DNA of 64,000 bases from Lachnospiraceae bacterium (lineage in GTDB: Bacteria > Bacillota > Clostridia > Lachnospirales > Lachnospiraceae): positions 124,001 through 188,000 of the forward strand of contig JAFLTE010000003.1 of assembly GCA_022510565.1 (NCBI GenBank), read 5' to 3'. The notes under the pieces were generated by a model that had not been told where the DNA came from, searched no databases, and worked only from the letters and a program-made list of their open reading frames with translations. Positions 4,496 to 22,188 of this stretch are shown piece after piece. Within the stretch, counting starts at the first letter, position 1. Every line of letters begins with the position of its first letter. The position numbers and the translations under genes were made by a program.

Positions 4496-5430
4496 AGGAA
4501 TTTCTCCTTGCGACAATACTTAGGTGGTGTGCTGCCGTTTTTCTTATGCAAACGCCTGTGGAATCTGTGGAGTCTGAGCAGCTTTCTGAACGCTGTAGGG
4601 AAATAGTAGTACAGATATAGGATACGGTCCTCCGTACACTTGAAAGGTCGGGTAACCCATAGATACAGTTTGCAGAATATCCGATTCAGACGTTGTGACC
4701 GACGACGGCGCAGGCGGGTCAGTATACCGAAATCTTCCTCGTTGGAGAGATGGTAAGTAAAGGACACACATAACCCCTGAACTGTGAGGTCTTCCACAGT
4801 GCAGCCCGTATCGCGCAATCCGCCGTAGAAAGCATCACGCATTTCTCCGTCGGGAAAACAGAGGGAAACTGTCAGATAAAGATCGGAAGGTTTGGAGAAA
4901 CGACCGGGCAGAAATGCCGTCAGCCACCAATGTCTGTCGGAATTCTGAACGCATTCCTCGGTCATATTGCACAGCCGCAGAGTACATGGGAGCATTTCCT
5001 CATCCTCCACAGCATGGAAAAGGGCTGTTTTGTATTCTGCCTTCGTCAAGAGCCTATCGGCATGGTAGATGCCGATTTCGGCGCCTGTGCTGATTCCGTA
5101 CTGACCTTTCCAGAATTCAATCAGCCAAGTTTTACCCTGATAATCAAAGTATACGGGCAGAGTATCAATGACCATCTGGAAACGGGATGCCATATAGTCG
5201 TAGAGCCAGGTATAACCGGCAGTTTTCTGCCATGCGTCCTGTGTAGATGAGAAGAAACCGCGGCGGCAGTGGTAAGTGTAGCCGAAGGGTCTTGCTAACT
5301 CACTGAGCAGCAAACATTTTCGGCATTTATCCATACAGCAGACACGGCAGATTATCTTCTTCCTGCGGCAATGAAAGAGAATCATGCACAGAAGAGCAAG
5401 AAATAATAAGATAAATAAAGCGTAATACAT
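4492..5430 (-). CDS. DUF4474 family membrane-anchored protein
   Basis: A 312-residue protein with one N-terminal membrane segment (residues about 3-19), then a Cys-rich patch (ICRVCCMDKCRKC) and a central domain with AWQKTAGYTWLYD and WLIEFWKGQYGISTGAEIG, which I recognise as typical of DUF4474, a family common in Lachnospiraceae. Its function is unknown. The C-terminal 90 residues are strongly basic (runs of Arg), suggesting interaction with membrane or nucleic acid. It is translationally coupled to the metallophosphoesterase downstream through an ATGA overlap. Confidence 0.75.
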   Translation of the reverse strand: MYYALFILLFLALLCMILFHCRRKKIICRVCCMDKCRKCLLLSELARPFGYTYHCRRGFFSSTQDAWQKTAGYTWLYDYMASRFQMVIDTLPVYFDYQGKTWLIEFWKGQYGISTGAEIGIYHADRLLTKAEYKTALFHAVEDEEMLPCTLRLCNMTEECVQNSDRHWWLTAFLPGRFSKPSDLYLTVSLCFPDGEMRDAFYGGLRDTGCTVEDLTVQGLCVSFTYHLSNEEDFGILTRLRRRRSQRLNRIFCKLYLWVTRPFKCTEDRILYLYYYFPTAFRKLLRLHRFHRRLHKKNGSTPPKYCRKEKFL

Positions 5431-5468
5431 AATCTATAACCTATCATATTATGTGGTTTTGCTTTATT

Positions 5469-6089
5469 TTATGTCGAAAATTGTAATAGGTGTGTGATTT
5501 TATCCTTATTTAGCTCGGAAAAGGGGATGACGGGCATGGGAGTAGGGCTGTGCTCACCAATCATTTTCTCCATCCATACCATATGATACCATGTGCCGAA
5601 CTTATATCCGCAGTTGTGGAAAGTTCCCACCATACGGTAGCCCATGTGCTCGTGGAATTGCACGCTGTTCAGGGTCAAGTGCTCGTCCGGGGTTTCCGGA
5701 TAGCCGATGCAGGCATTCAGGTTGAGAATGTTTTGGGACTGAGAAATTCGCTCCAACGCCTCATAAAGCATCCTGCCAACGCCCATTTTGACCTTGCTTT
5801 TATTCAGATATATGGTAGTTTCCGCCGACCAATCATATGCAGCGCGTCCCACAAACGCATGGGTGTAGGCGTAGCCTAAGATTTCTCCGTCATATTCCGC
5901 AACAAGATAGGGATATTTCTTTAAAATATTCGCAATTCGCGCTTCGAACTCTGTGAGACTCGGCACATCACATTCGAAGCTGATTGCCGTATCTGTCACA
6001 TAGGGCGCGTAGATATTCAATAGTTCTTTTGCATCGTCTATGGTGGCGATGCGGATTGCGGGTTTGGTTATTTGTTCTTGCGTCTGCAT
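5469..6089 (-). CDS. GNAT family N-acetyltransferase, phosphinothricin-acetyltransferase-like
   Basis: A 206-residue GNAT acetyltransferase. IRIATIDDAKELLNIYAPYV at the N-terminus, GYAYTHAFVGRAAYDWSAETTIYL in the middle and the acetyl-CoA-binding KMGVGRML segment are the pattern of the Pat/YwnH subgroup that acetylates phosphinothricin-like amino acids or related small amines. The C-terminal HEHMGYRMVGTFHNCGYK is also typical. The extra C-terminal tail of about 25 residues is not part of the domain. The protein stands alone, 38 bp before the DUF4474 gene on the same strand. Confidence 0.8.
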   Translation of the reverse strand: MQTQEQITKPAIRIATIDDAKELLNIYAPYVTDTAISFECDVPSLTEFEARIANILKKYPYLVAEYDGEILGYAYTHAFVGRAAYDWSAETTIYLNKSKVKMGVGRMLYEALERISQSQNILNLNACIGYPETPDEHLTLNSVQFHEHMGYRMVGTFHNCGYKFGTWYHMVWMEKMIGEHSPTPMPVIPFSELNKDKITHLLQFST

Positions 6090-13625: not shown

Positions 13626-13649
13626 TACTGCGGAAGATGGGACTTGAAC
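13626..13649. repeat. att direct repeat, distal end of the element
   Basis: Identical over 24 bp to the 3' end of tRNA-Leu(AAG) at 20265-20288. The sequence beyond it diverges at once from the tRNA, so this is a duplicated tRNA end and not a second tRNA gene. Confidence 0.88.
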
Positions 13650-13740: not shown

Positions 13741-14622
13741 TCACCATTCTATCCTTTTCCCGTTCAGATACACCTCATAACCTTTACGGCACCAAATCAT
13801 AATGTTATAATCCATTATTTGGCGATCATAAGAATCTTCAATAATTTTCTGTAAAAGAAATCCGTCATATGTAAATACAATATTTCCAATTTCTATTTTT
13901 CGTTTTCCAAAAACCTCGACACTGTTTTTGCTGTCTCGCAACTTTAGATGATCCTTATATACCACAAACTCTTTCTTAGAATCAACGTCAATCAAGCCTA
14001 AATGTTGTAATTCCAAAATTCCTCTATTAGTCAATCCCTGTGTTCCGTATCCTTTTGAACCCTTACTAAAGAAAATGACGGGGTAAATACTTATTACATC
14101 ATTATTATCTGGTGATATATCCATATTTACCAATCTAAATTTACAAATATTTTTAAAACATTCTGCCTGCTTTCGATTCATTAAAGATAATGTATTGAGC
14201 AACGTCTTTGAGCAAAATTCTGGATTGTCACAGGCTTCCGTTAAAATACGTCCCCATACATACTGCATCTGTTCGTTCGAGATGTAGGCAGCTTTATGCA
14301 TAAAAGAAAGAAGCCAGTCATCATCTATGTTTTCTGGTTTTGCTGTGTCACTCACATTATCAAGTGAAACATTAAGAATCTTTGCTTGATTTGCAAATTT
14401 AATAGTTGACTTGGATAAATTGGAAATGAGTACAGCTTTTGTATAGTCATCCATCACTGTATTATCCAGAATTTCTCTTTTGTACTTCTCATCGTATTCC
14501 CTTTCAAGTATTATTTTTGAAATCTTACTGTCAGTAAGTGCCTTGACAGTTGATGTGATGGGATAAAAAATACCTGTAACATTTCCTACTTTTTCTAATA
14601 GCTGTTTCCACGTTTCACTCAT
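13741..14622 (-). CDS. DUF2806-like protein, element cargo
   Basis: A 293-residue soluble protein. The central segment, DDDWLLSFMHKAAYISNEQMQYVWGRIL read in parts, followed by the LLNTLSLMNRKQAECF helix, resembles DUF2806, a family of unknown function. An N-terminal helical region (1-110) precedes it, and the C-terminal 100 residues look beta-rich. AAGGAGAG is placed eight bases before the start. It is transcribed with the two-TM protein gene upstream (78-bp gap), divergently from the small membrane peptide. The position inside the element suggests accessory function, possibly anti-phage; that is inference only. Confidence 0.65.
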   Translation of the reverse strand: MSETWKQLLEKVGNVTGIFYPITSTVKALTDSKISKIILEREYDEKYKREILDNTVMDDYTKAVLISNLSKSTIKFANQAKILNVSLDNVSDTAKPENIDDDWLLSFMHKAAYISNEQMQYVWGRILTEACDNPEFCSKTLLNTLSLMNRKQAECFKNICKFRLVNMDISPDNNDVISIYPVIFFSKGSKGYGTQGLTNRGILELQHLGLIDVDSKKEFVVYKDHLKLRDSKNSVEVFGKRKIEIGNIVFTYDGFLLQKIIEDSYDRQIMDYNIMIWCRKGYEVYLNGKRIEW

Positions 14623-14700
14623 AATAGTGTCTCTCCTTGTACGTTGATTTTATAATGGTTTAAAATTATAGTACAAGTACATAAGGATTATCTGTATATA

Positions 14701-15336
14701 TTAAAATTTAAAGAAAGAGAAAAAACCAAAAAAAATGGTAAGTATAATACCAACTATTGATATAACATTCGCACGTTGATTTTGTTTACTCTGCGTTATG
14801 AACAGCTTTTCTTTATTTTCAATTTCTTGTGAAAGATGTATTAATGCATTCGATCCTAGAGATTCATTATTACTAATTAATGCATTTTTTATCGATTGCA
14901 ATAAATCGGCTTCTTTTTTGGGAATCGAGATAAAGGGATTTACATCTTTAATATAAGTACATATATCAACCATAAATCGTCTAATATCTTTATTTTTTTC
15001 AACTTCAAATATATTCTTAAAGATTTTATCTGAACGAGTGTCATAATAATAAATAAGTGTTTGCAATAAATCTAGGATACTTGAATAAGAACTGTTGGGA
15101 TAAGACTGACAAAGTTTTTCATAATTTAGGTTAAGCTGCTCCAATATATCAGCCGGATTAGAACTTTTAATTTCGGAATTAGGATAAACTGAGTATATAT
15201 TACAAACTGCATTATAGTATCTTCGCATAATAATACTCTGTCGGTCTTTTTTTAATATTATAACGAAAAATGCCCAGATATATATAACTATAACAATAAA
15301 AAATAAAATGTACATAAAAGTTTCTAAATTTTGCAT
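14701..15336 (-). CDS. Unknown protein with N- and C-terminal membrane segments
   Basis: A 211-residue protein that I cannot assign. Residues about 9-29 form one hydrophobic segment (ILFFIVIVIYIWAFFVIIL), the middle 155 residues are soluble, helical and charged, and the last 20 residues form a second hydrophobic segment rich in Phe and Ile. The hairpin topology puts both ends on the same side with a large loop between them. An AAAGGAG site precedes the start. It is the first gene of the minus-strand pair with the DUF2806-like protein; a membrane effector and a cytoplasmic partner would fit, but nothing in the sequence proves it. Confidence 0.6.
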   Translation of the reverse strand: MQNLETFMYILFFIVIVIYIWAFFVIILKKDRQSIIMRRYYNAVCNIYSVYPNSEIKSSNPADILEQLNLNYEKLCQSYPNSSYSSILDLLQTLIYYYDTRSDKIFKNIFEVEKNKDIRRFMVDICTYIKDVNPFISIPKKEADLLQSIKNALISNNESLGSNALIHLSQEIENKEKLFITQSKQNQRANVISIVGIILTIFFGFFSFFKF

Positions 15337-15471
15337 CTTAAAATCTCCTTTGTAAATATTAAATATCCAAGTTGAATTATAACATTATTTCTTTTTTAAC
15401 GCTACATATTTAGTTTGTTTGACTGAGTTTTTTTTATTGAGATATATTATTATTACCTCTACATACAAATA

Positions 15472-15500
15472 TTGACAATATTGTACACATACTATATAAT
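15472..15500 (+). promoter_or_regulatory. Consensus sigma-A promoter for the 47-codon membrane peptide
   Basis: A perfect TTGACA (15472-15477) and a perfect TATAAT (15495-15500) are separated by exactly 17 bp. Transcription would begin near 15507, leaving a leader of about 190 nt before the start codon at 15695. It is the best promoter match I found in the element. Confidence 0.8.
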
Positions 15501-15537
15501 TCCTATAGCAAGCCTAAAGTAAAGCATAGCAAAGAAT

Positions 15538-15640
15538 AAAACTTTCATGAAGAGAAAAGCGTAGTCAAGAACACAAAAACTATCAAGAAAAGAAAAGCGT
15601 AGTCAAGAACAGAAAACTTTCAAATATAAAAACGTAGGAA
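15538..15640 (+). repeat. Imperfect tandem repeat, period about 38 bp, in the leader of the small membrane peptide gene
   Basis: AGAAAAGCGTAGTCAAGAAC recurs at 15553 and 15591, flanked each time by AAAACTTTC or AAAACTATC (15538, 15576, 15613). The unit is 37-38 bp. Two full copies are followed by a degraded third, and a weaker copy (AGTAAAGCATAGCAAAGAAT) lies before the first. No reading frame is kept across the units. The whole array is inside the predicted 5' untranslated leader, so it may act in RNA or bind a protein. Confidence 0.75.
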
Positions 15641-15694
15641 AATGTGAAATCAATTTAGGCTTGTGCAATTAATAATATTTGGAGGAATAATTAA

Positions 15695-15838
15695 ATGACA
15701 GAGTTTTTGATTACGGGTTCTATTGCGATAGTTGCAATATGTAGTGTTGTAGCTATCAAAGTTTTTACAAAAGATGAAAGACATGACGTCGAAATCAAAG
15801 CTGGAAAGTTTCATTTTTCGATTAGAAAACATGATTAA
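15695..15838 (+). CDS. 47-residue membrane peptide, element cargo
   Basis: A short frame starting at ATG 15695 with GGAGGA placed eight bases upstream. Residues about 4-24 form one hydrophobic helix (LITGSIAIVAICSVVAIKVF) and the remaining 23 residues are charged with several His, Lys and Arg, ending SIRKHD. A consensus promoter lies 195 bp upstream and a strong terminator 10 bp downstream, so it is an independent transcription unit. Size and topology fit a small toxin, holin-like or regulatory peptide; I recognise no family. Confidence 0.65.
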   Translation: MTEFLITGSIAIVAICSVVAIKVFTKDERHDVEIKAGKFHFSIRKHD

Positions 15839-15847
15839 CACAGCAAC

Positions 15848-15875
15848 AAAAGGAGCAATTAGTCTTGCTCCTTTT
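15848..15875 (+). terminator. Rho-independent terminator after the membrane peptide
   Basis: An 11-bp perfect stem, AAAAGGAGCAA paired with TTGCTCCTTTT, with a six-base loop and terminal T-run. It closes the short unit that begins at the promoter at 15472. Confidence 0.88.
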
Positions 15876-16010
15876 CAATTTAAAGAGAAAATAATATATG
15901 GGAAAAATAGTATGTAACCTTATTCGGTCATTACATCTACTGTAGAAATAAGGATGAAATGCAATTCAGTTATATACTTTGTTGTTTATCAATATTATCC
16001 ATAAAAGTGG

Positions 16011-17747
16011 GTGTATAGTTTGGGAAATTACATAGATTTAACAGGTAAAAGATTCGGTAATTGGCTAGTGCTGAGAAGAGATGAGGAAAATCTTAAGAAA
16101 AATATTCATTGGATATGTCAATGCGATTGTGGAACAATTCGAAGTGTATCAGGAACCAGTCTTAGGAGCGGGATATCGTTTTCTTGTGGATGTTTGAAAG
16201 ATAAAAAAACCTCAGAACGTACAAAAACTGCTGTAGATGATCTGGTAGGAAAGCACTTTGGGAGTTGGACTGTATTAGAACTGGATTTGTCAAATGATAA
16301 ATCATCCAAACGAGGTGCACGGTGGATATGTAGATGTGATTGTGGAACAACTCGTAGTGTACTTGGTTATGCAATGAAATATGGTCGTTCTCAATCGTGT
16401 GGATGTAATCACTCAACAAGTATTAAAGATTTAACTGGACAAAAATTCGGTAGATTGACAGTATTAAAGTTAGATTCTTCTCAATATGATGATAATAGAG
16501 GTGCACGGTGGATATGCCAATGTGATTGTGGCAATATAGCAACTGTATTAAGTGGTAGACTTGTTAGTGGACAAACGCGCTCTTGTGGTTGTTCAAGAAG
16601 TAATATTTACAGAGAAAATGATATTAACATTGGTGATAGATTTAATTATTGGACAGTAGTCAAAAAAGATTTGACTAAAAAAGGAAAAGGTTCATTTTAT
16701 ATTTGTAGATGTATGTGTGGAAATGAGCGAAGTATTCCTGCATATACACTTAGACAAGGTTTTTCACAATCTTGTGGCTGCAAACGATCGATTCCCAAAG
16801 AGGACTTAACTGGACAAAAATTTGGAGAATTATCTGTGCTTGGACAAGATTTAGATTACTTTGGTTCTGGTATTTATTGGAGATGTAAATGTAGTTGTGG
16901 AAGTATTAAGTCTTATCGTACTTTGCAGCTAGAAAAAGGAAAGGTAAAGTCATGTGGGTGCTTAAGTCGCAAAATGACATCCGAAAGAAGATTTGACGAT
17001 ATAACAGGTCAAAGGTTTGGCAAGCTTATTGCAATAAAGGTTGACCATGTAAAAAAAGATAATAACGGTAATAATAATATTTTTTGGTTATGTCATTGTG
17101 ACTGTGGAAATGATAAAGTAGTTCAAGGTGATGTTTTACGCCGAGGTGAAACTGTTTCATGTGGATGCTATCAATCGCAACAATCTAGTATACGAGCAGC
17201 AGAAAGAACAGTTGATTTATTAGGCAGACGGTTTGGAAAATTAACTGTGATAGAGCGTTCAATCCGTAAGGATAATTATGGACATACTATTGGAACTTGG
17301 CTTTGTCAATGTGATTGCGGAAACACTACTTTTACAGATGGTTACTATTTATGGCAAGGGATGGTTACATCATGCGGATGTGCTAATCAATCAAAATATG
17401 AAATGTATGTACTTCAGTATTTTCGTGAGAAAGAATATTTGAATAGTGTAGATTATGAATGCCAAAAGAGGTTTGATGATTTGAGAGGTTATGATAACGG
17501 AATGCTGTCGTTTGATTTTGCAGTTTACAAATCAAACAAATTATTGTATCTTATAGAGTGTCAAGGACAACAACATTATATGCCAGTTGAAATGTTTGGT
17601 GGAAAAGAACAGTTTGCTAAACAACAAATTCATGATGAATTGAAACGCAATTACGCAAAGAAGTTAAAAGTTCATTTGTTAGAAATCCCTTATACAGTAA
17701 AGACATATGAAGATGCAAAACAAATATTAGAAACAGCAGGTGTTTGA
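16011..17747 (+). CDS. Putative modular nuclease: seven tandem zinc-ribbon repeats plus Vsr/EDxHD-like endonuclease domain
   Basis: A 578-residue protein made of seven repeats (residues about 9-61, 76-132, 140-194, 206-257, 265-317, 329-386, 402-457) and a C-terminal domain (461-578). Each repeat opens with a DLTGQKFGxLTVL-like strand and carries CxCxCG and SCGC; in all seven the gap from third to fourth cysteine is 18 residues. Single such modules are common in phage proteins and are thought to bind DNA. The C-terminal domain has E464, D502, ECQGQQHY (516-523), HD (541-542) and LLEIPY, the order of Vsr-like EDxHD homing endonucleases. The start may be GTG 16011 or TTG 16020 (beginning MGNYIDL); neither has a strong ribosome site. 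Specificity and role (homing, defence or element competition) are unknown. Confidence 0.78.
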   Translation: MYSLGNYIDLTGKRFGNWLVLRRDEENLKKNIHWICQCDCGTIRSVSGTSLRSGISFSCGCLKDKKTSERTKTAVDDLVGKHFGSWTVLELDLSNDKSSKRGARWICRCDCGTTRSVLGYAMKYGRSQSCGCNHSTSIKDLTGQKFGRLTVLKLDSSQYDDNRGARWICQCDCGNIATVLSGRLVSGQTRSCGCSRSNIYRENDINIGDRFNYWTVVKKDLTKKGKGSFYICRCMCGNERSIPAYTLRQGFSQSCGCKRSIPKEDLTGQKFGELSVLGQDLDYFGSGIYWRCKCSCGSIKSYRTLQLEKGKVKSCGCLSRKMTSERRFDDITGQRFGKLIAIKVDHVKKDNNGNNNIFWLCHCDCGNDKVVQGDVLRRGETVSCGCYQSQQSSIRAAERTVDLLGRRFGKLTVIERSIRKDNYGHTIGTWLCQCDCGNTTFTDGYYLWQGMVTSCGCANQSKYEMYVLQYFREKEYLNSVDYECQKRFDDLRGYDNGMLSFDFAVYKSNKLLYLIECQGQQHYMPVEMFGGKEQFAKQQIHDELKRNYAKKLKVHLLEIPYTVKTYEDAKQILETAGV

Positions 17748-17761
17748 GAAGGGGGCTAAAA

Positions 17762-18004
17762 ATGTTAGCGTATAATGAAAATGGTGAACTAGCAGAATTC
17801 GAGGAACATGGTGGTGTTGCAGTTTGCAAATTTTGTAAGCAACCATATCATCGGTATGAAACAGAGCAAGTACCGGGGTTTAGAATCAAAGATTATGACA
17901 TATGCCCTTATTGCGGCAAAGAAAATGGCAGTAGTATGGAGTGGGAATATAGCAATCGAAAAATGACTGATGATGAAATTAAACAGTTAAAGGCAAAGCA
18001 ATAA
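17762..18004 (+). CDS. Small zinc-ribbon protein next to the modular nuclease
   Basis: An 80-residue protein with two CxxC pairs (CKFC at residues 22-25 and CPYC at about 53-56) that would bind one zinc ion, plus an acidic N-terminus and a Lys-rich C-terminal helix. It starts 14 bp after the nuclease stop, with AAGGGGG just before the ATG, so it is probably co-transcribed with it. It could be a partner or regulator of the nuclease; no family was recognised. Confidence 0.65.
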   Translation: MLAYNENGELAEFEEHGGVAVCKFCKQPYHRYETEQVPGFRIKDYDICPYCGKENGSSMEWEYSNRKMTDDEIKQLKAKQ

Positions 18005-18034
18005 CATTCGAATATGATGCTGTAATTATTTATA

Positions 18035-18063
18035 CTGACACAAAAGGTAATATGTGATATAAT
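18035..18063 (+). promoter_or_regulatory. Extended -10 promoter of a short transcript
   Basis: CTGACA (18035-18040) and TATAAT (18058-18063) are 17 bp apart, with TG one base before the -10. Transcription would begin near 18070, only 25 nt ahead of a strong terminator hairpin. Confidence 0.6.
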
Positions 18064-18069
18064 ATTTCT

Positions 18070-18146
18070 ATAAAACTGAACGACAAGGACATTTAAAATG
18101 ACAAACGGTGAATCCCGATAGGTTAGGATTCTCATTTGTCATTTTT
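18070..18146 (+). ncRNA. Candidate short RNA or attenuator leader with a 7-codon frame
   Basis: Between the promoter at 18035 and the terminator ending at 18146 there is room only for an RNA of about 77 nt. It contains AAGGA (18085-18089), eight bases before an ATG (18098) that opens the frame M-T-N-G-E-S-R-stop, and the ATG lies in the 5' arm of the terminator stem. This resembles a peptide-controlled attenuator for the HTH/integrase genes downstream, or a free small RNA. It could also be only the terminator of the gene ending at 18004. Confidence 0.4.
18095..18146 (+). terminator. Strong two-part terminator hairpin
   Basis: AAAATGACAAA (18095-18105) pairs with TTTGTCATTTT (18135-18145), and GAATCC pairs with GGATTC inside, followed by TTTTTGTTTTT. 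It ends transcription from the nuclease unit or from the short transcript. Confidence 0.82.
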
Positions 18147-18187
18147 GTTTTTAGGAAAAGTTACCGCGATTTGTTCCTGACATATTA

Positions 18188-18308
18188 GTTAATTTTGAAA
18201 AATATTCGGAGAGAAATTTTTTCAGTATATAAGAGATTTTGAATAAGATTTTCAAAATTTAGAGCTTAAAATTGATATCACAAATGCGCAAACAAATAGT
18301 TATCCACA
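18188..18308. promoter_or_regulatory. AT-rich leader of the HTH/integrase pair with inverted repeat and DnaA-box-like site
   Basis: The 196 bp between the terminator and the HTH gene hold an 11-bp inverted repeat (AATTTTGAAAA near 18191 and TTTTCAAAATT near 18250) and a perfect TTATCCACA (18300-18308), the DnaA-box consensus. A TATAAG lies between the repeat arms. This could be the operator region controlling integration genes. The nine-base DnaA match may be chance. Confidence 0.35.
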
Positions 18309-18342
18309 AAAATTAACTTTCAAAAAGGAGATAGTTACTACT

Positions 18343-18813
18343 ATGAATGTTACCGAAAATCAACTAATCAGTCAACAATCACAACCGTTATCCAAACCGC
18401 CGGTCAGACCGCAACTTTCAAATCTTGATACCTTTACTCAAGACAAATTGTTGCAGATTGCCAAAAGTGACAACTCCAATTCAGTTGCTTTTCAATGTTT
18501 GACGGAACTTGTTCATAGAACTTTAGAGAAAAACCAAGAATTAGGCGAAAAGGTTATCACGCTTGAACAAGAAATATCCAATCTTCAAGCAATGCTCAAT
18601 CCGCCCAAGAAGAAATGTGGGCGAAAAGCGGAAGAGTTTTTCGTCAACGGAAAGACGCTCGATGACGATTACCTCATGTATCTGATTGATGGTGGCTATT
18701 ATAAAATCCGAGAATTGGAAAAGGAAGTCGGGGCAAACAAGAATCAGCTCCGCAGACGTATTGAACGCTACAAAGAAAAGCAAGAAAGGACAGATAACAC
18801 ATGCCAATCATAA
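18343..18813 (+). CDS. Small HTH protein upstream of the integrase
   Basis: A 156-residue protein: a Gln/Pro-rich N-terminus, a helical middle with coiled-coil character (residues about 60-88, LEKNQELGEKVITLEQEI) and a C-terminal helix-turn-helix (about 105-150, IRELEKEVGANKNQLRRRIERY). AAAGGAG lies upstream of the start. Its end overlaps the integrase start by 13 bp, so the two are translated together. Position and size suggest an excisionase-like or regulatory partner of the integrase; that role is inferred. Confidence 0.65.
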   Translation: MNVTENQLISQQSQPLSKPPVRPQLSNLDTFTQDKLLQIAKSDNSNSVAFQCLTELVHRTLEKNQELGEKVITLEQEISNLQAMLNPPKKKCGRKAEEFFVNGKTLDDDYLMYLIDGGYYKIRELEKEVGANKNQLRRRIERYKEKQERTDNTCQS

Positions 18814-20159
18814 AACCAATCGTACAAGATTTTTTAATACCGCAAAACTACACTTCCTCACCCGAAATCATTAAAAACTGCTTGCAGGAAGTCCTAGAAG
18901 ATAGTATCCTAAAACCACAAGTCAGCGCTCCGGCTAATGATGAAAATATGACCAAGAAACAACGTGAATATATTCTAAAAAAGCACATGGAGCAATATAC
19001 AACTAAATATTATGAGTCAGATAACAGGTGGCATTCATTTCTGCCGGACGAAACACACCCACGAGGAATGAAACCCATTGCCAAAAGGAAATGGGAAGAT
19101 TTAGAGAATGTGATTGTGGAATTCTACCAACAGCAGGAACAGAGCGAAAAGCGCAAACGCATCACCTTAAGAAGACTTTATCCTGAATGGTTTGCTTACA
19201 AGTGGCAGGATACCAATAATTCAAGCTACATGAACCATATCAATTATGACTGGAAACGCTTTTATGATAATGACAGCATTGTTGACCGTCCGATTGTGGA
19301 ACTTACCACGCTTGAACTGAAGAACTGGGCAAGAAACAAAATCATTTCCGAAAAGCTCAACAAAAAGCAGTATTACAACATGTCAGTCATTATAAGGCAA
19401 AGTCTTGAATATCTTGTGGAGCTTGGGGAACTGTCTGCGAACCCGTTCAGCGCCTTTAAGATCAAGCATTCATTATTTACGCCCATAGTTGAGAAAGAAC
19501 CCGAATATGAGGTATTCAACGAGGTTGAGGAACAGCAGATTAAGGAATTTGCCTTAAAGGACTTTGAAAGAAACGTTGAGCTTACAACCGCGCTTGCGGT
19601 AGTTCTCAACTTTTCCCTCGGCTTAAGGGTGGGCGAGCTTGTAGCCCTCAAATGGAAAGACTTAAAAGACTCTTATCTGCATATCCGGCGCATGGAACAA
19701 AAGCAGTATGAACAGTTACCGGAAGGCAAGTGGCATTATCACATTGAAGTTGTGGAGCACACTAAGTCTTATGCAGGCTATCGCACCATTTATGTGGTTT
19801 CCAGTGCATTAGAGATATTTGAGCGGATAAAGCAAGCCAACTTGCAAAAGGGGTTTTCCTGCGGTGCAGAGGACTATATTTTCCTATATCGGGGCAAACG
19901 TATCACTTCACAAGCCATTGACAAGAAATATGAACGGTATTGCAGGGAATTGGGGTTTGTAAAGAAAGGCAATCACAAGACGAGAAAGACCTGTCTGACG
20001 AAAATAGCGGACAATCCTAACATTAACTTAAAGGACGCTATGCAGTTCAGTGGACACAGGGACGTACAGACGTATATTAAGCATTATTGTTTCTCCCGTT
20101 ATTCGGACGAACAGAAGCGAAACGAGCTTGAAAAGACGCTGAATTTCCGTCCCAAATGA
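18801..20159 (+). CDS. Tyrosine recombinase/integrase of the tRNA-Leu element
   Basis: A 452-residue phage-type integrase. The catalytic set is visible: R276 in SLGLRVGEL, HKTR (H392, R395), GHRD (H419) and the nucleophile Y429 in IKHYCF. The N-terminal 240 residues hold the arm-binding and core-binding regions, longer than in minimal recombinases. It should cut and rejoin DNA at the 24-bp tRNA-Leu att core to integrate and excise the element. AAAGGA lies nine bases before the start. The gene ends 105 bp from the tRNA-side att repeat, the usual place for the integrase of a tRNA-targeting island. Confidence 0.92.
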   Translation: MPIIKPIVQDFLIPQNYTSSPEIIKNCLQEVLEDSILKPQVSAPANDENMTKKQREYILKKHMEQYTTKYYESDNRWHSFLPDETHPRGMKPIAKRKWEDLENVIVEFYQQQEQSEKRKRITLRRLYPEWFAYKWQDTNNSSYMNHINYDWKRFYDNDSIVDRPIVELTTLELKNWARNKIISEKLNKKQYYNMSVIIRQSLEYLVELGELSANPFSAFKIKHSLFTPIVEKEPEYEVFNEVEEQQIKEFALKDFERNVELTTALAVVLNFSLGLRVGELVALKWKDLKDSYLHIRRMEQKQYEQLPEGKWHYHIEVVEHTKSYAGYRTIYVVSSALEIFERIKQANLQKGFSCGAEDYIFLYRGKRITSQAIDKKYERYCRELGFVKKGNHKTRKTCLTKIADNPNINLKDAMQFSGHRDVQTYIKHYCFSRYSDEQKRNELEKTLNFRPK

Positions 20160-20256: not shown

Positions 20257-20264
20257 ATCACATC

Positions 20265-20288
20265 TACTGCGGAAGATGGGACTTGAAC
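20265..20288. repeat. att direct repeat, tRNA end of the element
   Basis: The 24-bp copy that coincides with the tRNA-Leu 3' end plus three bases beyond it; identical to 13626-13649. Confidence 0.88.
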
Positions 20289-20351
20289 CCACACGATGTA
20301 ACCATCACAAGATCCTTAGTCTTGCTCGTCTGCCAGTTCCGACACTTCCGC
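20268..20351 (-). tRNA. tRNA-Leu (anticodon AAG)
   Basis: The 84-nt cloverleaf reads GCGGAAG...CTTCCGC for the acceptor stem, with the D-arm GGCAGAC, anticodon stem CAAGA/TCTTG around the loop CTAAGGA (anticodon AAG), a long variable arm as expected of class II tRNA-Leu, and GGTTCAAGTCC for the T-arm. CCA is not encoded. The 3' end is shared with the att site of the integrated element, which has kept the gene intact. Confidence 0.93.
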
Positions 20352-20373
20352 ATATGTTCACAACGCAAATAAT

Positions 20374-20502: not shown

Positions 20503-21315
20503 ATGTATTATTTTACGGATGACTGTTTAATCGGCGTTGAGCAGATTGATGATGAACATCGGGAATTATTTCGGATAATCGGGGAAACCAGAGAGTTACT
20601 GGATAACGAGATCCTGGATGACAAGTATGATAGGATTTGCGAGATGCTGGTACGCTTGGGAGAGTATGCGGAAGAGCATTTTCGTCATGAAGAAGAATAT
20701 ATGGAGGAAATCAATCATCCTGAGCTGGAACTGCAAAGGAAACAGCATCTTGCATTCTGCGAGAAAATGGACGAGATGGATGCCGTAGTCGGCGGACATG
20801 ATCAACAGGAGTTTCTCGATGATTTGCTGACCTATCTTGTTAGATGGCTGTACAGACATATCATCGGTTCCGATTTGATGATTGGTAGGATGAAGTCGGT
20901 GGATGAGCGGAAACAGATTGGCTATGATTTCACGGATGAATATCTGACAGGGGTCGAACTGGTTGATGAAGAACATAAAGAGCTGTTTCGCATTATAAGA
21001 CAGGTACACGAAATGATTGCGAATGAGTACTTGGCAGATAAATATGATGAGATTATCAGCTTGCTGGAGGAACTGAGGACCTACACGAAGGTTCATTTTA
21101 AGGACGAAGAAGAATATTTGGAGAGCATTCAATACGAAGGGTTGGAAGCACAGAGAGTGGCTCACGAGATGTTCGTTGCCAGACTGGAAGAAATCGATTT
21201 GAATGAGATCGATGCCCACCAGGAGGAGGTACTCCAAGAATTGATGGCTTTTTTGACGGAATGGCTTATCAATCATATCCTGCATATGGATAAGAAATTT
21301 GGTCAGGTGCATTGA
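20503..21315 (+). CDS. Double-domain bacteriohemerythrin
   Basis: A 270-residue soluble protein made of two hemerythrin domains (about 1-132 and 138-270). Each keeps the diiron ligands in order: DDEH or DEEH, then HFRHEEEY or HFKDEEEY (H and E), then KQH or VAH, and RHIIGSD or NHILHMD (H and D). Hemerythrins bind O2 reversibly at a non-haem diiron centre and in anaerobes serve in oxygen sensing or scavenging. A fusion of two intact domains is less common than the single-domain form. A close paralogue follows 48 bp downstream. Confidence 0.9.
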   Translation: MYYFTDDCLIGVEQIDDEHRELFRIIGETRELLDNEILDDKYDRICEMLVRLGEYAEEHFRHEEEYMEEINHPELELQRKQHLAFCEKMDEMDAVVGGHDQQEFLDDLLTYLVRWLYRHIIGSDLMIGRMKSVDERKQIGYDFTDEYLTGVELVDEEHKELFRIIRQVHEMIANEYLADKYDEIISLLEELRTYTKVHFKDEEEYLESIQYEGLEAQRVAHEMFVARLEEIDLNEIDAHQEEVLQELMAFLTEWLINHILHMDKKFGQVH

Positions 21316-21363
21316 GAAATTTTGTAATATTATAAATATATATTTAGGGATAGGGGGTATAAA

Positions 21364-22188
21364 ATGTACTACAGGTTTACTGATGAGTGTTTGATTGGTG
21401 TTGATCAGATTGACGATGAGCATAGAGAATTATTCCGATTGGTTGGAGAAGTACAGGATTTACTGAATGATAAATGGACACAGGACAAATATTTCGAGAT
21501 CTGTGATTTGATAGAACGCCTGAAAGAGTATGCTGCGGAGCATTTTCGGCATGAAGAGGAGTACATGGAGAAGATCGGACATCCGGAATTGGAGATGCAG
21601 AGACAACAGCACGCGGATTTTTGCGAGAAAGTTGATGAAGTGGATCCCAGGTCTGCCGAAGGTGAGCAGCAAGAACTGATTTCAGATTTGTTAAACTTTC
21701 TGGTAAAGTGGCTGTACAAACACATCATCGGCTCCGATTTGCTGATTGGCAAGTTAATGTCGGTAGAAGAGTGGAAACAGAAAGAGGATTATTCTTTTGA
21801 GGAGAAATATCTGACAGGTGTTGACAGCGTAGATGAAGAGCATAGGGAATTGTTCAAGATTCTCGATGAAATCCATTATATTGTGGTATATGACGATACA
21901 GATGAAAAATATGATAAGCTTGTAAATATGCTTAAACATTTTAAGAATACCATGCTGGCTCATCTTAAGAGCGAAGAGGAATACATGGAAAGCATTCAGT
22001 ATGAAGGACTGGAACTGCAGAGACTGGCACATGATGTGTTTTCTGCCAGACTGGAGCTGTTGAATCCGGATGAATTTGATGCGTCTCGCCAGACGGAATT
22101 GGAAGAATGGGTGGAAGTCCTGTCAGAGTGGGTTGTTACGCATGTTGCTAATATGGATGTCAATATTGGTCGGGCGCAGAAGAGCTGA
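21364..22188 (+). CDS. Double-domain bacteriohemerythrin, paralogue of the preceding gene
   Basis: A 274-residue protein with the same two-domain layout as its neighbour and clear sequence identity to it (opening FTDECLIGVDQIDDEHRELF). The first domain keeps all expected His/Glu/Asp ligands. In the second, DEEH, a His before SEEEY, LAH and THVANMD are also present, so both sites should bind iron. The pair arose by tandem duplication of an already doubled gene. GGGGGT precedes the start. Likely role: O2 binding or protection against oxygen in the cytoplasm. Confidence 0.9.
   Translation: MYYRFTDECLIGVDQIDDEHRELFRLVGEVQDLLNDKWTQDKYFEICDLIERLKEYAAEHFRHEEEYMEKIGHPELEMQRQQHADFCEKVDEVDPRSAEGEQQELISDLLNFLVKWLYKHIIGSDLLIGKLMSVEEWKQKEDYSFEEKYLTGVDSVDEEHRELFKILDEIHYIVVYDDTDEKYDKLVNMLKHFKNTMLAHLKSEEEYMESIQYEGLELQRLAHDVFSARLELLNPDEFDASRQTELEEWVEVLSEWVVTHVANMDVNIGRAQKS

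Follow-up and report, generated by a model that had tools for sequence, protein, structure and literature searches.

The 64,000-nucleotide stretch analysed here (the window; positions 124,001 to 188,000 on the forward strand of contig JAFLTE010000003.1, Lachnospiraceae bacterium assembly GCA_022510565.1) carries a gene for an array nuclease at 16011..17747 (+ strand), in which seven predicted zinc-ribbon modules precede a Vsr/EDxHD-like nuclease domain. This gene forms part of the cargo of a 6.6-kb integrative element at a tRNA-Leu gene. Its product is genuine and intact and belongs to a kind of selfish nuclease already known, within which its length is unusual. The reading that we favour, at a probability of roughly two in three, is that the gene encodes a site-specific nuclease of the homing-endonuclease type, in which the seven-module array would read a long site and the C-terminal domain would cut. 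The modules, arranged like beads on the N-terminal side of the nuclease, would bind a long DNA site in fixed order, with cleavage at one end of the bound site. Each module would have a frame made of its cysteines, the SCGC motif and the conserved L and G; its module-specific contacts would come from columns 12, 14, 15 and 20 of the 26-residue core, which immediately precede that L or follow that G, and modules would be gained or lost as units. As free-standing cargo of the element, the gene may cut competing DNA or alleles that lack it and thereby favour its own spread. Binding to DNA, cleavage, the pairing of each module with one short DNA stretch and the advantage for the element are what we infer; the observations follow.

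The open reading frame (ORF) encodes 578 amino acid residues from a GTG codon. A TTG at 16020 (575 residues) is the probable start, because the two closest relatives, L172 and L208, begin with MGT-IDL at that point. The motif C.C.CG-17-CGC occurs seven times with identical internal spacing, 17 residues separating CG from CGC each time. The cores of modules 1 to 7, all on the + strand, lie at 16116..16193 (residues 36-61), 16329..16406 (107-132), 16515..16592 (169-194), 16704..16781 (232-257), 16884..16961 (292-317), 17091..17168 (361-386) and 17304..17381 (432-457). Spacers of 34-45 residues connect them and contain a motif of the D-L-T-G-x-x-F-G-x-L-T-V type. The module repeats are also detectable at the DNA level (repeat family D1). 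No Pfam model matches the window protein above the cut-off. The PHROG family phrog_374 hits seven separate stretches of it, with a whole-protein E value of 2.9e-106, which places the seven-module array far beyond chance. A preceding reading of the bare letters (the sequence-only reading) had described seven modules of identical cysteine spacing with 35 cysteines in all; we located all seven cores and counted the same 35 module cysteines among 37 in the protein. Two of its lengths needed correction: the supposed 18 residues before SCGC are 16 residues plus the S before CGC, and the distance from FG to the first cysteine, given as 13-21 residues, measures 19-23, with FN in place of FG in module 4.

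Two side observations concern the module itself. In the window protein the module is hit by the NCBIfam model NF035954 (“CA_C0660 family putative sactipeptide bacteriocin”; E 8.2e-9, below the cut-off of the model). Weaker hits occur in L187 and L192, and none in L172 or in two ORFs of locus L205; judging by these matches, this bacteriocin family may in reality be a zinc-ribbon module. On another contig of the same genome (L081), a second, weak match (residues 7-60, E 4e-7) lies in an open frame of 225 residues.

The nuclease domain occupies the module-free C-terminus (17382..17744, + strand; residues 458-578, 121 residues), and phrog_9084, annotated as “homing endonuclease”, spans residues 457-575 with an E value of 4.5e-23. 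Alignments of this domain were drawn from 58 ORFs picked by a loose motif, a few of which may be other nucleases, and comprised the window protein with the ends of 49 of them, or with 46 or 36 of them. In the largest alignment, S461, D502, F503, E516, G519, H522, D542 and Y561 are invariant, and E464, Q521, K545, I554, L556 and I559 are kept in at least 90% of the sequences. A separate alignment of 37 full-length proteins (36 and the window protein) confirmed the conserved nuclease residues. E464, D502, E516, H541 and D542 stand at the positions that had been given for them, and the proposal of a Vsr/EDxHD-like domain whose acidic residues are kept in homologues was supported, with D502, E516 and D542 invariant and E464 kept as above. 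The histidine of the proposed HD motif was not: H541 is replaced by various residues among the 50 sequences and is unconserved. Weak matches to the Pfam families DUF2726 (33 of 47 members, best E 9e-7) and DUF559 (three of 47) were found, neither of them in the window domain; we take both families to belong to the PD-(D/E)xK/Vsr group. In the same genus, the nuclease domain of L072 is related, with 42% identity to residues 444-578. Read by eye, it is preceded by an N-terminal part of a different zinc type and by a single CxCxCG-like segment, and the gene adjoins a phage tape-measure-like gene.

The order of the modules is kept between the closest relatives. L172, a seven-module protein from a Clostridia metagenome-assembled genome (MAG), is 61% identical to the window protein over its length (E 1.3e-245). 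When the two were compared module by module (module 4 of L172 being entered in shortened form), the best partner of every module was the same-numbered one, at 54-78% identity. L208 has five modules, which best match modules 1, 2, 5, 6 and 7 of both the window protein and L172, and a nuclease domain that is 64% identical; modules 3 and 4 are without counterpart in it. Its second module is 65% identical to module 2 and 61% to module 3 of the window protein, so that the assignment leans on L172, where the values are 68% and 55%. By this alignment, modules 3 and 4 were either lost in L208 or gained in the window protein and L172. The same-place partners in L172 and the absence of modules 3 and 4 from L208 indicate that modules come and go and otherwise keep their order. 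The gene of L208 is flanked by direct repeats of about 210 bp (L295, 6790-7004 and 8645-8848; 72% identical).

Many viral contigs and bacterial genomes contain relatives, with two to five modules. Three scans of viral contigs returned 66 loci, 83 stretches and 21 loci, respectively; species genomes yielded 45 stretches. Among annotated phages 458 records match, seven of them with a single place covering at least 80%; of plasmids 144 match, none reaching 80% coverage. Across 98 genomes of relatives, 397 of the family and 392 of the order (partly overlapping sets), the best other match has an E value of 4.2e-46 and 35% identity. At E values up to 1e-25, 17 of the 397 family genomes and 11 of the 392 order genomes match, the window's own included. 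We surveyed array length with a strict three-module pattern that requires TGT at one site, so the survey undercounts. Counting each distinct ORF that has three or more strict modules, we found 55 with three, five with four, two with five and one with seven (the window) in the first locus set, and 28 with three, 16 with four, two with five, one with seven (L172) and one with eight (L205) at the loci from species genomes. The 58 ORFs mentioned above, which have at least two modules and a tail with the loose nuclease motif and do not include the window, comprise 37 with three modules, 12 with four, six with two, two with five and one with seven. Homologues with other module numbers, which the sequence-only reading had proposed to look for, thus range from two up to eight modules per ORF. 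Read by eye, the array tails are EDxHD-like, HNH or AP2 domains. Weaker viral matches mostly have one module and other tails.

If the modules read DNA, some of their positions should be module-specific. Over 434 cores, the most variable columns were 14, 12, 20, 10 and 15. Columns 12, 14, 15 and 20 were chosen on the group formed by the window protein, L172 and L208, which provides 17 equivalent and 102 non-equivalent module pairs (from three proteins, the pairs not being independent). There the residues match in 0.04, 0.11, 0.07 and 0.02 of the non-equivalent pairs and in 0.53, 0.65, 0.71 and 0.59 of the equivalent pairs, respectively, against 0.13-0.24 and 0.18-0.35 at control columns of our choice (2, 8, 17, 18 and 22). 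In 13 groups of orthologous arrays (118 proteins, 111 pairs, L205 being kept apart), the largest excess fell at columns 20, 14, 18, 12 and 17. In the 12 groups other than the window group, L205 again being kept apart, columns 12, 14, 15 and 20 stood above a second set of chosen controls (2, 7, 8, 9, 10 and 22) in nine (sign test 0.073, Wilcoxon 0.013), a test that is only partly blind, one group (L204) having been viewed beforehand. This pattern suggests that the four columns vary between modules and persist between orthologues, as recognition residues would. The comparisons support an individual identity for each module, conserved at a small number of positions, though not in every group.

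The longest run of modules gave a second view of the same columns. Locus L205 (2-3067, - strand), from a Clostridia MAG in which repeat assembly could be imperfect, has 16 modules in four adjoining ORFs (one, eight, three and four modules). Its DNA repeats of 174-183 bp match at 87-88%, no nuclease domain is present, and some tails are rich in lysine and proline. Among the 16 modules, columns 12-15, 18 and 20 show 560 codon differences, of which 462 replace the residue; elsewhere the proportion is 349 of 1069. The six columns were picked after the L205 data had been viewed, and 302 of 20000 random six-column sets, drawn evenly, reach the same replacement excess. Frame positions change silently only; L16, for example, shows 86 silent and no replacing changes in 120 pairs. 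The ratio of replacing to silent changes (pN/pS) is 0.72 in the variable columns and 0.13 elsewhere, with silent divergence (dS) above 1. These ratios describe variable columns that are relaxed or diversified.

The gene lies within an integrative element. An exact direct repeat of 24 bp, found in a direct-repeat comparison (D4), brackets 6.6 kb; the left attachment-site-like (att-like) copy is at 13626..13649, and the right copy, at 20265..20288, lies within the 3' end of tRNA-Leu(aag) (20267..20352, - strand; tRNA scan), the presumed integration target. A tyrosine integrase is encoded next to it (18801..20159, + strand; Pfam PF00589, E 2.2e-14; phrog_1, E 2.1e-30). The G+C content is 0.29-0.39 over 14001-20000, compared with 0.43-0.47 before and 0.41-0.50 after. 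When the window and seven others of 15 collected integrase loci were scanned, six of the seven (L212-L216 and L218, not L217) also had a tRNA. No structural or replication genes were recognised among the element's ORFs. The remaining cargo includes a DUF2806 protein (13741..14622, - strand; Pfam PF10987, E 2e-20) and a protein with hydrophobic N- and C-terminal stretches (14701..15336, - strand; no family above the cut-off); these two genes (13741-15336) share a strand, opposite to that of the nuclease gene, and could form a two-gene defence pair. Directly 3' of the nuclease gene, and perhaps on the same transcript, is a gene for a small CxxC-CxxC protein (17762..18004, + strand) that starts at ATG 17762, the listed ORF running from TTG 17744, and has weak zinc-finger matches below the cut-off. 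It is followed by a small coiled-coil/helix-turn-helix-like protein, so read by eye (18343..18813, + strand; no family above the cut-off), whose gene overlaps the start of the integrase gene. In the AT-rich stretch 5' of the nuclease gene, two tandem 38-bp repeats (15538-15613) are 89% alike. Outside the element, 20503-22188 holds two adjoining paralogous genes, each with two hemerythrin-like halves by eye.

This setting bears on two other roles for the nuclease. One is defence or competition, in which the enzyme would cut DNA of phages or rival elements on behalf of its element and homing would no longer be involved. The element is small, no structural or replication gene having been recognised in it, and carries the nuclease gene beside a DUF2806 gene and one for a putative membrane protein; parts of homing endonucleases have been recruited into phage-satellite conflicts, as the section concerned of PMC10448857 describes; and the neighbourhood of L172 includes a pair that looks by eye like a toxin-antitoxin pair, that of L208 a gene with a PIN7 domain (E 8.3e-30). 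PADLOC, run on the element of the window, returned nothing for the nuclease and three other proteins and stray weak matches for two more (E 0.029 and 0.0043), and the genes around L172, L208 and the L187 group were inspected by eye; we regard this role as unlikely. The other is direct service to the element as a nuclease for excision, transfer or replication. The gene lies inside the element on the same strand as the integrase gene, and an 18-bp stretch at 15930-15947 resembles the att side at 20257 (83%). Short matches of that sort are common in the same comparison, and the stretch was dropped as chance-level; relatives occur outside such elements, and the related integrase loci L212 and L213, whose ORFs were read, have no array nuclease. 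We hold such service to be very improbable. Proximity to tRNA-Leu as a rule for array nucleases was also dropped, being absent at most loci scanned: the array nuclease has a tRNA-Leu gene nearby in the window, at 0.9 kb in L187 and at 1.6 kb in L208, other tRNAs are beside L196, and no tRNAs were found in the DNA around L172, L173, L189, L191, L192, L194, L195, L204 and L206.

The preferred reading, a homing-type nuclease, gains from the surroundings of the relatives. In Virgibacillus (L192), a four-module ORF sits between matches to group II D1D4-5 and Intron_gpII, the only one of 11 loci scanned with introns. This intron splits a type IV coupling-protein gene, whose upstream exon matches Pfam T4SS-DNA_transf (E 2.4e-6) and whose downstream exon, with no Pfam match, was assigned by eye. 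The 8-kb locus has two group II introns in tandem, beside and inside the coupling-protein gene; one contains an ORF that looks by eye like a reverse transcriptase and the other the array nuclease. Group I introns adjoin array ORFs at two of 19 viral loci scanned (L108 and L131). In the L187 group (L297-L300), four genomes have in common 2.3-2.7 kb of DNA at 84-96% identity, a block that extends to 4.5 kb in the pair L297 and L300. It encodes an XRE regulator (HTH_3 in L297, E 6.7e-12), a nuclease with four strict modules and one degenerate module, and TnpV (E 1.5e-37 in L300). The comparable flanks differ, and in L298 and L300 the block runs to the contig end on one side. A conserved stretch at 10391-10465 of L297, shared with its relatives, closes one side of the block and is possibly an element end; the DNA of L298 past the block end resembles that of L297 just after tRNA-Leu (5423-5507, 84%). 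As far as such neighbourhoods allow comparison, the contexts of the relatives match the behaviour of homing and transposon-riding endonuclease genes.

A number of results weigh against this interpretation, and some concern the nuclease and its mobility. The window nuclease domain has no Pfam match above the cut-off (best DUF5889, 0.028). Solved structures gave no match at E values up to 1 in a sequence search with the whole protein, and four matches up to E 10, none of them an EDxHD chain, with the profile of the nuclease domain, where T7 endonuclease I (E 0.92) ranked below an antibody chain (0.57); a match of the full profile to aIF1 (E 0.077) was taken as noise. With H541 unconserved, Pfam matches weak or absent and no solved EDxHD structure matched, we use “EDxHD/Vsr-like” as a descriptive name, and the domain is not a proven EDxHD member. 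In an Rfam scan the window gene lies in no recognised intron. Flanks of about 260 bases around the window gene, L172 and L208 have nothing obvious in common by eye, and a search of 61 genomes of the genus of L191 for the empty site of that relative gave scattered partial matches, none clean.

The others concern the columns. Columns 10, 11 and 21 have a similar excess in the window group (0.46-0.57), so the list of four is not sharp. Three of the 12 other groups (L148, L141 and L164) have the opposite pattern, and of the four other groups whose tails are plainly EDxHD-like by eye, two follow the pattern (L204 and L159) and two do not (L148 and L141), so that support for the columns comes largely from AP2-tailed arrays. 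Over the 19 free columns, variability correlates negatively with orthologue identity (rho -0.61), which is 0.47 at the six most variable columns and 0.52 at the other variable ones. In L205 a pN/pS of 0.72 does not show positive selection, and module-specific conservation could also stem from packing between modules or from protein partners. The failure of the pattern in three of the 12 groups, together with the nuclease-free arrays with short tails (L205, L143 and L176), speaks for modules that are structural or RNA- or protein-binding repeats, or for a selfish enzyme that is losing its function. Against this, the frame is intact, catalytic residues are kept, module order is kept down to 61% identity, and these modules also occur in front of EDxHD-like, HNH or AP2 tails as read by eye, which points to a shared DNA-targeting task; we find such an explanation decidedly unlikely. 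The strongest version of DNA reading, in which the CxCxCG-17-CGC module is a true modular reader, colinear along the DNA, with a short stretch per module set by columns 12, 14, 15 and 20 and helped by 13, 17 and 18, we hold to be doubtful.

Tandem arrays of C2H2 zinc fingers and of transcription activator-like effectors (TALEs) combine modules of constant frame with few variable positions. The window group is like them in its constant frame and few variable, module-specific positions; no sequence relation to them was seen (no C2H2 family is among the Pfam hits of the window protein). In those systems each module reads a set number of bases by a code. Phage HNH and AP2 proteins with one CxCxCG module (phrog_374, phrog_559) have the same module with other tails, mostly singly.

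The sequence-only reading had supposed this kind of array to be undescribed, which is not so: homing endonucleases with tandem zinc fingers appear in PMC10448857 (2023) and PMC12350094 (2025), and the window protein shares their layout, a tandem series of predicted zinc modules ahead of a nuclease domain of a homing-endonuclease family. In its passages on these enzymes, PMC12350094 (Nucleic Acids Research 2025) describes three to five CapR/DUF4379/DUF723-like domains of about 60 residues followed, as in the window protein, by a C-terminal domain of about 100 residues with a distant relation to EDxHD/Vsr; the enzymes lie in group II introns and their homologues mostly in group I introns, with thousands of UniProt matches by profile. 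The window protein differs in having seven CxCxCG-17-CGC modules and in being free-standing in an integrative element. The Pfam models of CapR, DUF723 and DUF4379 do not match it at E values up to 1, nor are they among the 25 listed of 29 Pfam families from 37 array nucleases. The T5orf172 homing endonucleases, as treated in the section concerned of PMC10448857 (2023), have CapR/DUF723/DUF4397 zinc-finger repeats like beads on a string, for which modular target recognition was proposed, and likewise show repeat arrays, in-frame loss of repeats and exchange between nuclease domains. They differ in the nuclease domain, in a CxxC...CxC zinc motif and in six repeat regions across the enzymes of one phage, and that section, unlike the present work, contains no analysis of module positions. 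In I-Bth0305I, an EDxHD homing endonuclease, the relevant part of PMC3943268 describes a nuclease tethered to an extended multi-domain DNA-binding region with a long target, a layout like the one proposed here; the window domain matched no such solved chain up to E 10, and its relatives do not conserve the HD histidine. As far as the sections cited go, the papers of 2023 and 2025 already propose modular or added DNA recognition, and the window protein is a variant of theirs that has a longer array, another zinc module and candidate recognition positions. In the open-licence literature searched, we found no CxCxCG-CGC array, no such enzyme with at least seven modules and no map of module-specific positions.

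The orthologues with five and seven modules differ by two modules while their nuclease hardly changes, and so would offer a ready experiment. If the modules are true readers, these orthologues and the 16-module run of L205 would be naturally re-programmed arrays, built on a zinc-based scaffold that is unrelated to C2H2 fingers and TALEs and has its own nuclease already attached. If the modules read DNA at all, they would be a new scaffold with directly testable candidate specificity positions, and a frequent phage-type module would help to explain how many homing endonucleases and AP2 and HNH proteins choose their sites.

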